This document shows positions 7,076 to 8,319 of a stretch of DNA of 37,954 nt, in pieces. Position 1 is the stretch's first letter, and each line of letters starts with the position of its first letter. A program made the translations under genes and the position numbers. The notes under the pieces were generated by a model. It saw only the letters and a list, made by a program, of their open reading frames with translations, was not told the origin of the DNA and did not search any database. Source of the DNA: Pseudomonadota bacterium (GTDB taxonomy: Bacteria; Chloroflexota; UBA5177); contig JAJPIP010000042.1 of assembly GCA_021324655.1 (NCBI GenBank), forward strand, positions 1 through 37,954, read 5' to 3'.

Positions 7076-8023
7076 TTACCAACCCGCGCGGGAGCCGCGA
7101 ATCCGGAAGGTTTCATCGGGCATGAAGCGGCGCCACATGCCGGCAGCGATGGCGCGTGCGTCGGAGGAAATGCCGAAGCGGGCAAAGTAAGAGCAGATCC
7201 GCTCGACGTCCCGTACGAGGAAGCGATAGGCATCCGGATTGCCGTATGCATCGATGACCTGTGGGAAATCGATCACGGTGATGCCTCCCTCCCAGTAGAG
7301 AACGTTGTAGGCGGAGAGATCGCCGTGGATCCGGTCGTGCTCCAGCATGAGCTCGATGGTGCGGAGGATACGAGTGAAAAGGGTTTGCGCTTCATTCGGC
7401 GCGATGCGCACCTCGCTCAGTGTCGGAGCAGGCGTGTGCTCGTCTCCCACGTAGCTCATGAGGAGCGCATTCTCGTCAAGAGCAATAGGTCGTGGCACAT
7501 CGGCGCCTGCGGTGTGCAGCGTCTGCAAGGTGGTGAACTCATGAGTGAGCCATGAGGTGTGACTGGTTGACGCACCTGCCCGGGAGCCCTGCCGCACGGC
7601 TTTCAGCATGCGCTTGTCCCGGACGGCCTTTCCGTCTCCGTCGAGAATGGGGCGTCCCCACTTGTAGTCTGCGTCGTTCTTGAAAGTACGGAACTGTTTG
7701 GGACGGTACACCTTGGCTGCGATCAGGTCGAGACCGGTGCTCGGGTGGGCACGGCAGCAGTAGACGGTCGCTTCCTTGCCGCCTTTAACGACACGCAGTA
7801 CATCGAGAATCTGTTGGTCACGGTGAAACGGTGCGAGGTAGCGTGTGATCCACTCGCGCTCATGGCGCGAGCCGGTAAAGGTGGGGTGAAAGTCGGACGT
7901 CGGCTCACTGTTGTGGTCCGATTCCGGCCCCTTCCTGGAGGGTCTGGAGCGACGACCTCTCTCCTGGGACTCAAGGTAGTCGTCCCACGCATCCGCGTCC
8001 GGGATGATGACGATCTTGGGCAC
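7076..8023 (-). CDS. RIO-type serine/threonine protein kinase
   Basis: 315 residues from GTG 8023, chosen because GGAG stands 9 nt upstream; ATG 8068 and GTG 8197 have poor or no ribosome-binding spacing. The RIO fold motifs are in order: glycine-rich 'KGGKEATVY' (80-88), ATP-binding Lys104 in 'AAKVYRP', catalytic loop 'HGDLSAYN' (233-240; Asp235, Asn240), and metal-binding 'IDFPQ' with Asp252. The first 50 residues are acidic/basic and probably flexible. RIO proteins are ancient atypical kinases; the archaeal and eukaryotic ones act in ribosome maturation, while bacterial members are little studied. It stands alone with a 200-nt leader (promoter at 8230-8258) containing a small ORF and a terminator-like hairpin. 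Confidence 0.88.
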   Translation of the reverse strand: MPKIVIIPDADAWDDYLESQERGRRSRPSRKGPESDHNSEPTSDFHPTFTGSRHEREWITRYLAPFHRDQQILDVLRVVKGGKEATVYCCRAHPSTGLDLIAAKVYRPKQFRTFKNDADYKWGRPILDGDGKAVRDKRMLKAVRQGSRAGASTSHTSWLTHEFTTLQTLHTAGADVPRPIALDENALLMSYVGDEHTPAPTLSEVRIAPNEAQTLFTRILRTIELMLEHDRIHGDLSAYNVLYWEGGITVIDFPQVIDAYGNPDAYRFLVRDVERICSYFARFGISSDARAIAAGMWRRFMPDETFRIRGSRAGW

Positions 8024-8069
8024 GGCAGTAGTCTCCGTTGATGAACGTGCGGTTGCCCGCACAGACATG

Positions 8070-8101
8070 AAAAAAGGCCACGGGCACGACGCGCCGCGGC
8101 C
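8070..8101 (-). terminator. Terminator-like hairpin in the leader of the RIO kinase gene
   Basis: On the minus strand an 8-bp stem GGCCGCGG/CCGTGGCC (8101-8094 with 8083-8076, one G-U pair) with a 10-nt loop is followed directly by six U (8075-8070). It lies between the predicted promoter and the GTG start, 46 nt before the start. That is the position of an attenuator rather than of a terminator for another gene: the only upstream minus-strand gene already has its own terminator at 8293-8319. Confidence 0.5.
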
Positions 8102-8126
8102 GCAACGGAGACCGACTCTCAGCCGA

Positions 8127-8189
8127 TCAATGACCCCGGACGCACCCTCCAACGGCAAGCGTCGAGTGCACGCAGCGAACACTTGGCAT
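8127..8189 (-). CDS. Candidate 20-residue upstream ORF in the RIO kinase leader
   Basis: ATG 8189 is preceded by AAAGGAG with about 9 nt spacing, one of the better ribosome-binding sites in the window, and the frame stops at TGA (8129-8127). The predicted peptide begins MPSVRCVHST and ends GGCVRGH; it has two Cys and no run of a single amino acid. It ends 25 nt before the terminator-like hairpin, so ribosome position could influence folding. Whether it is translated is unproven; a site this short can arise by chance. Confidence 0.3.
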   Translation of the reverse strand: MPSVRCVHSTLAVGGCVRGH

Positions 8190-8229
8190 AATGACACTCT
8201 CCTTTACCGAAAATGGTGCGTCTGAAGAC

Positions 8230-8258
8230 AGACTATCACTGTGGGACCGGCGCAGCAA
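8230..8258 (-). promoter_or_regulatory. Sigma-70-type promoter for the RIO kinase leader
   Basis: On the minus strand: -35 TTGCTG (8258-8253), 17-bp spacer, extended -10 TGA-TAGTCT (8238-8230). The expected start is near 8223, giving a leader of about 200 nt before GTG 8023. It is the only promoter in the window where I find a plausible -35, correct spacing and an extended -10 together. Confidence 0.55.
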
Positions 8259-8292: not shown

Positions 8293-8319
8293 AAAAGCCG
8301 GGTCCTGGCACCCGGCTTT
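8293..8319 (-). terminator. Rho-independent terminator after the CxxC zinc-ribbon gene
   Basis: On the minus strand: stem AAAGCCGGGT (8319-8310), loop of six, stem ACCCGGCTTT (8303-8294), with the T run at the 3' side (8296-8293). It lies 17 bp after the stop of the gene at 8336-8653 and separates it from the RIO kinase promoter. Confidence 0.88.

Follow-up and report, generated by a model that had tools for sequence, protein, structure and literature searches.

A putative ribosome-operated attenuator precedes a bacterial RIO kinase gene and belongs to a conserved leader family of Chloroflexota

The window, by which we mean the whole 37,954-nucleotide stretch of DNA that was analysed, comes from a Chloroflexota genome bin and carries a gene for a RIO-family kinase on its minus strand (7076–8023; GTG start at 8023, 315 codons and a stop). 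The product matches Pfam PF01163 (E = 1.6e-36), and its nearest solved structures are RIO1 kinases. A preliminary description of this DNA had proposed an attenuator-like leader in front of the gene, and direct reading of the sequence recovered every leader element that it named, each in its place on the minus strand. The predicted promoter (8230–8258) comprises a −35 element TTGCTG (8258–8253), a 17-nt spacer and an extended −10 element TGA-TAGTCT, with the −10 at 8235–8230, and transcription is predicted to start near 8224–8222. Further upstream, an intrinsic terminator on the same strand (AAAGCCGGGTGCCAGGACCCGGCTTT, 8294–8319), just past a zinc-finger gene (zf_Tbcl, 8653–8336), stands between that gene and the RIO leader, which makes a shared operon improbable.

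The leader, all of it on the minus strand, begins with the segment GACGCACC (8215–8222), which in our folds forms the outer strand of an anti-antiterminator with GGUGCGUC (8146–8139); in L005, a relative of the same family, the counterpart GACGUACC pairs with GGUGCGUC as well. The next segment, S1 (8194–8209), is the Shine-Dalgarno region of a 20-codon leader ORF (MPSVRCVHSTLAVGGCVRGH and a stop; 8127–8189, ATG at 8189, TGA at 8127), with the Shine-Dalgarno sequence AAAGGAG at 8205–8199. Two segments lie within this ORF. S2′ (GCACUCGACGCUUGCCG, 8153–8169) has S1 and S3 as alternative partners, the former (as 8169–8153) in the free leader. S2 (GGUGCGUC, 8139–8146), near the end of the ORF, is conserved family-wide, in the alignment A1 and the models R1 and R2. 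The ORF is followed by the strand GUCUCCGUUG (8103–8112), an exact reverse complement of 8040–8031, and by a GC-rich intrinsic terminator (8070–8101) with the stem GGCCGCGG/CCGUGGCC at 8101–8076 and six U at 8075–8070; S3 (CGGCGCGUCG, 8096–8087) falls within its loop and 5′ arm. A small hairpin with a GNRA-type loop (GUGCGG-GCAA-CCGCAC, 8047–8062), also named in the preliminary description, lies inside the helix that hides the Shine-Dalgarno region of the kinase (CAACGGAGAC, 8031–8040).

The fold of the window leader is 4.6 standard deviations below that of dinucleotide shuffles (z = −4.6), and none of 200 shuffles was equally stable. A generic scan for promoters and terminators flagged neither the window promoter nor the terminator hairpin, so the support for both is comparative. 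We noted that the kinase frame stays open through most of the leader, and an automatic ORF call starts from a GTG at 8197 to give a 373-residue protein (8197–7076, minus strand). We do not favour the leader as part of a longer kinase, since the frame of the leader ORF is a different one and the RNA structure of the leader, which ends before the Shine-Dalgarno sequence of the kinase, is conserved.

We compared the RIO loci of public genomes, of the window and of a second relative. A leader ORF with a strong Shine-Dalgarno sequence (12–32 codons, within about 590 nt upstream of the kinase) was found in 55 of 80 loci, against 1.3 expected from flanking DNA. Anaerolineae and Ktedonobacteria have such ORFs, as do bins that were assigned to Planctomycetota, Bipolaricaulota and Myxococcota. 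In 68 of 114 leaders, compared with 3.2 in shuffles, the extended −10 motif TGnTAnnnT falls between −60 and −35 relative to the leader ORF; that of the window is at −49. This conserved position places the transcription start just before S1. A relative of the same family (L003 and L005), with kinases 61–63% identical, keeps the promoter position, the leader ORF, the terminator and the helix hiding the Shine-Dalgarno sequence. The preliminary description had held that its proposal would fall if the ORF or hairpin were unconserved in relatives; promoter, ORF and terminator are all conserved.

The leader ORF is also a candidate for translation. Pairs of leader ORFs from relatives gave a pN/pS of 0.56 (synonymous, 57.5 of 207.7 sites; non-synonymous, 95.5 of 620.3), and we found the reading phase of S2 to be constant in 80 of 113 leader ORFs, which results in a recurrent (R)SAP near the C terminus; S2 of the window is in a phase different from this common one. 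At the level of sequence the ORF is thus coding-like and under coding constraint, and with its strong Shine-Dalgarno sequence its translation is predicted.

Alignment of 22 RIO leaders revealed three helices. The anti-antiterminator S1:S2 pairs the Shine-Dalgarno region of the leader ORF with the body or end of that ORF, the antiterminator S2:S3 joins the ORF end to the loop and 5′ arm of the terminator, and the third helix is the terminator itself. S2 can be in only one of S1:S2 and S2:S3 at a time, and the 5′ arm in only one of S2:S3 and the terminator, so the helices are mutually exclusive. Compensatory change in all three exceeded both shuffles and slid controls. The same was seen in 86 leaders, part of which were the training loci obtained via another collection, so that the two sets are not fully independent: S1:S2 had 41 double-changed cells (12.9 expected, reached in 0 of 500 shuffles), and the terminator stem of the hairpin with six U had 89 (29.7 expected, 0 of 500). 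S2:S3, which was left out of the alignment model that contained S1:S2 and the terminator, was 89.9% paired with 48 double changes, against 19.6 ± 3.4 (0 of 500). Shuffles leave relatedness in; slid controls retain kinship yet were only 25–51% paired for S2:S3. At family level the antiterminator and terminator thus overlap and both covary. The leader has, as read from sequence, a promoter, a coding-like ORF and three mutually exclusive helices, and the regulation through translation of the leader ORF that had been suggested for this gene gains support from the compensatory changes in S1:S2 and S2:S3. The anti-antiterminator, the antiterminator, the helix hiding the kinase Shine-Dalgarno sequence and the extension of the leader family beyond RIO genes had escaped the preliminary description.

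In the window itself, S1 and S2 are shifted in position relative to most of the family, S2 within the leader ORF. The free nascent leader is predicted to form S1:S2′ (12.7 expected pairs), a shifted version of the family's anti-antiterminator, together with the outer helix, and no S2′:S3 pairs (0). With a ribosome placed at codons 1–3 of the leader ORF, S2′:S3 has 10.9 expected pairs. The S2′:S3 duplex of the window alone did not differ significantly from shuffles (p = 0.21). In folds of family leaders at equilibrium the complete terminator is usually dominant, and we therefore tested the switch on nascent RNA that still lacked the terminator 3′ arm. A ribosome at codon 3 increased nascent S2:S3 by at least two pairs in 52 of 108 leaders and decreased it in 2. 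The complete terminator of the window is likewise more stable than S2′:S3, whether the leader is free or carries an early-stalled ribosome. Readthrough must therefore be kinetic, decided as the polymerase passes.

In addition to these helices, the window leader can form a 10-bp long-range helix, GUCUCCGUUG (8112–8103) with CAACGGAGAC (8040–8031), which covers the Shine-Dalgarno sequence of the kinase; the duplex is stronger than expected from shuffles (p = 0.002). Compensatory change is seen within it, as UCUCCGUUG/CAACGGAGA of the window corresponds to UCUCCAG/CUGGAGA in L005. A helix of this kind as a family-wide feature was rejected (10 of 99 leaders in the best 5%). In the window genome it probably provides a second, translational lock on the kinase, a part of the joint reading set out below.

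To test the window leader independently of its own sequence, we used R2, a covariance model built from 56 leaders in front of non-RIO genes, with the window's genome and the relative G001 excluded. With filters off, R2 had a single match in the whole window, at 8222–8070 of the minus strand (E = 2e-4). It also recovered most Anaerolineae RIO leaders; L005, L008 and L070 are among the RIO loci whose leaders it found. By this criterion the window leader is a diverged member of the family. In the window's own genome the models detected only the RIO leader, and only two genomes of the window's family, its own and one other, have a leader detectable by the models.

The model R1, trained on RIO leaders, had matches in 26 of 301 sampled Chloroflexota genomes, a phylum scan for which the E-value cut alone predicts well under one false match. 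In the class around G111, taken as Anaerolineae from named relatives, 137 of 396 sampled genomes had matches. The downstream gene was read for 116 leaders, among which the RIO share is inflated by the training of R1 and the shares of other gene classes are not. The genes encode 44 RIO kinases, 24 ABC exporters, 20 GNAT acetyltransferases (14 by similarity, 6 by Pfam), 14 RsgA GTPases, 8 other ABC proteins including an ABC-F ATPase, 1 MFS transporter and 1 aminopeptidase P; 4 were without a call. The leader family thus extends beyond RIO genes. The ABC-F-type ATPase, at L186:316-1797, has two ABC_tran stretches and ABC_tran_Xtn and stands behind a leader of the same family. ABC-F genes are the classical target of drug-induced attenuators, and the downstream genes are of kinds known from responses to translation inhibitors.

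The above results suggest, with a probability of about 78%, that a ribosome-operated transcription attenuator precedes the RIO kinase gene and that in the window genome it is combined with a second, translational lock. With no ribosome on the leader, S1:S2 would form and the terminator would halt transcription. A ribosome held in the first codons would sit on S1 and leave S2 free. While the 3′ arm of the terminator is still unmade, S2 would pair with the loop and 5′ arm, and the polymerase would read through to the kinase. A ribosome reaching the end of the ORF would cover S2, and the terminator would form again. In the window, 8112–8103 would also pair with the Shine-Dalgarno region of the kinase in any readthrough RNA that arises without switching. 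The direction of this switch, with early stalling as the on state, is one that we infer by analogy with vmlR and hflXr (discussed below). The kinase would then be made when ribosomes are slowed, and the inducer is probably a ribosome-targeting antibiotic or another translation stress. The presence of RsgA, an ABC-F ATPase, GNATs and drug exporters downstream of other leaders fits translation stress.

Promoter, leader ORF, terminator and gene follow one another as they classically do in amino-acid attenuators, where a shortage of one amino acid halts the ribosome at the codons for it. The leader ORFs, however, have no conserved run of a single codon type; four of one residue within seven were found as isolated cases, with different residues, and the targets are not biosynthesis genes. 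This explanation is largely refuted. The lack of an amino-acid-specific run argues for a general sensor of the ribosome or of translation, which accords with the earlier suggestion that the kinase is tuned by translation state. A metabolite riboswitch, in which a ligand rather than the ribosome selects the fold, could also have a complex conserved structure with alternative helices. Rfam, however, gave no match at the gathering score and only chance-like matches below it, and the switching segments are the Shine-Dalgarno region and body of a leader ORF under coding constraint; we consider a riboswitch quite improbable.

Two further explanations keep the leader ORF and dispense with regulated termination. 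In one, the ORF would govern only the hiding of the kinase Shine-Dalgarno region by 8112–8103, the hairpin with six U being a structural arm that terminates little. The exactness of the 10-bp complement and its compensatory version in L005 favour this, as do some Bipolaricaulota and Myxococcota RIO leaders that have a leader ORF and no terminator that we could find. However, no elements of the family are better conserved than the terminator stem and U tract, the hiding helix is not general, and the covariation of S2:S3 with the terminator 5′ arm is most sensible if the terminator is regulated; regulation of translation only is thus unlikely. In the other, the leader would be an independent small RNA or encode a small protein, with RIO expressed mainly by plain readthrough. 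Such a leader would release a short RNA ending near 8070, and the leader ORF is indeed coding-like in relatives. The leaders are, however, associated with certain genes that follow them on the same strand, and their alternative helices covary, which makes this explanation hardly credible. The ribosome-operated attenuator is thus the reading that we prefer.

Attenuators of this kind are known elsewhere. The leader of vmlR in Bacillus subtilis, which encodes an ABC-F antibiotic resistance factor, has experimental support (PMC9226507). It resembles the RIO leader in that its leader ORF lies within an anti-antiterminator, and it likewise has an antiterminator, an intrinsic terminator and a final hairpin that hides the gene's Shine-Dalgarno sequence (PMC9226507); one leader of the Chloroflexota family precedes an ABC-F gene (L186). 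The likeness is in the set of elements; the leader ORF has 3 codons there and 20 here, the phylum is different, the target here is a RIO kinase, and induction would follow by analogy. In Listeria monocytogenes, the rli80 attenuator of hflXr (lmo0762) combines a 14-codon leader ORF, alternative structures and premature termination (PMC6310831). Its target is a ribosome-associated GTPase, and the Chloroflexota family includes RsgA GTPases (PMC6310831 for the former). The RLR macrolide motif of rli80, by contrast, is present in only 1 of the 113 leader ORFs here and absent from that of the window. The msrD leader of streptococci provides macrolide-sensing regulation of an ABC-F target (PMC10314930), a likeness in the kind of target.

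Efflux pumps, acetyltransferases and ABC-F factors are among the targets of WhiB7/WblC in actinobacteria, a set similar to the genes downstream of the Chloroflexota leaders. WhiB7/WblC controls resistance to translation-targeting antibiotics (PMC7157823, PMC10727445). There one transcription factor commands the regulon, whereas here each gene apparently has its own attenuator. Among open-licence papers we found no leader or attenuator of a bacterial RIO kinase and no attenuator of Chloroflexota. The leaders are best described as a new conserved family of ribosome-operated attenuators of Chloroflexota. Attenuators of the kind occur elsewhere, and what is newly recognised is the RIO kinase as a target.

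Archaeal and eukaryotic relatives of RIO kinases are linked to the small ribosomal subunit. A conserved, probably ribosome-sensing switch shared with RsgA, ABC-F, acetyltransferases and exporters gives a concrete hint of the conditions under which bacteria need a RIO kinase. We tentatively propose, at a little short of even odds, that bacterial RIO kinases are translation-stress proteins. On this view Chloroflexota would respond to ribosome-targeting antibiotics in a scattered, WhiB7-like manner, and the genes for RIO kinases, RsgA, ABC-F, GNATs and drug exporters would each have their own copy of a single inherited attenuator. Ribosomes that are stalled or mis-assembled, or else the drug, would be what the kinase acts on. 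The attenuator RNA family, so far uncatalogued and present in about a third of the sampled genomes of one Chloroflexota class, may also help to uncover as yet unrecognised genes for resistance or ribosome rescue in uncultured bacteria.

We also observed other leaders in front of RIO genes. In the Bipolaricaulota and Myxococcota bins (L078, L079 and L082) the leader ORFs end in FAASxRA and this end covers their own Shine-Dalgarno sequence, with no terminator found; in L082 the downstream Shine-Dalgarno sequence is apparently hidden by a hairpin. At L004, the same-family RIO locus of G004, the Shine-Dalgarno sequence of the leader ORF (MNRTIAAVLPVSARRSVHVAHL) pairs very strongly with the end of the ORF (−34.6 kcal/mol), and no terminator was detected. 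RIO leaders of Ktedonobacteria (L048, L053–L055 and L061), missed by the models, have the same apparent logic in other sequence (AGGAGCGTGC / TCACGTCTCC / GAGCGTGATG). A second conserved leader type precedes RIO in L014, L017 and L046; its ORFs start with MNAEEQV (or MQVEDQV), and it has a pair resembling GGCACGGTGG/CCGCCGTGC, whose halves are separated by inserted repeats in several cases.
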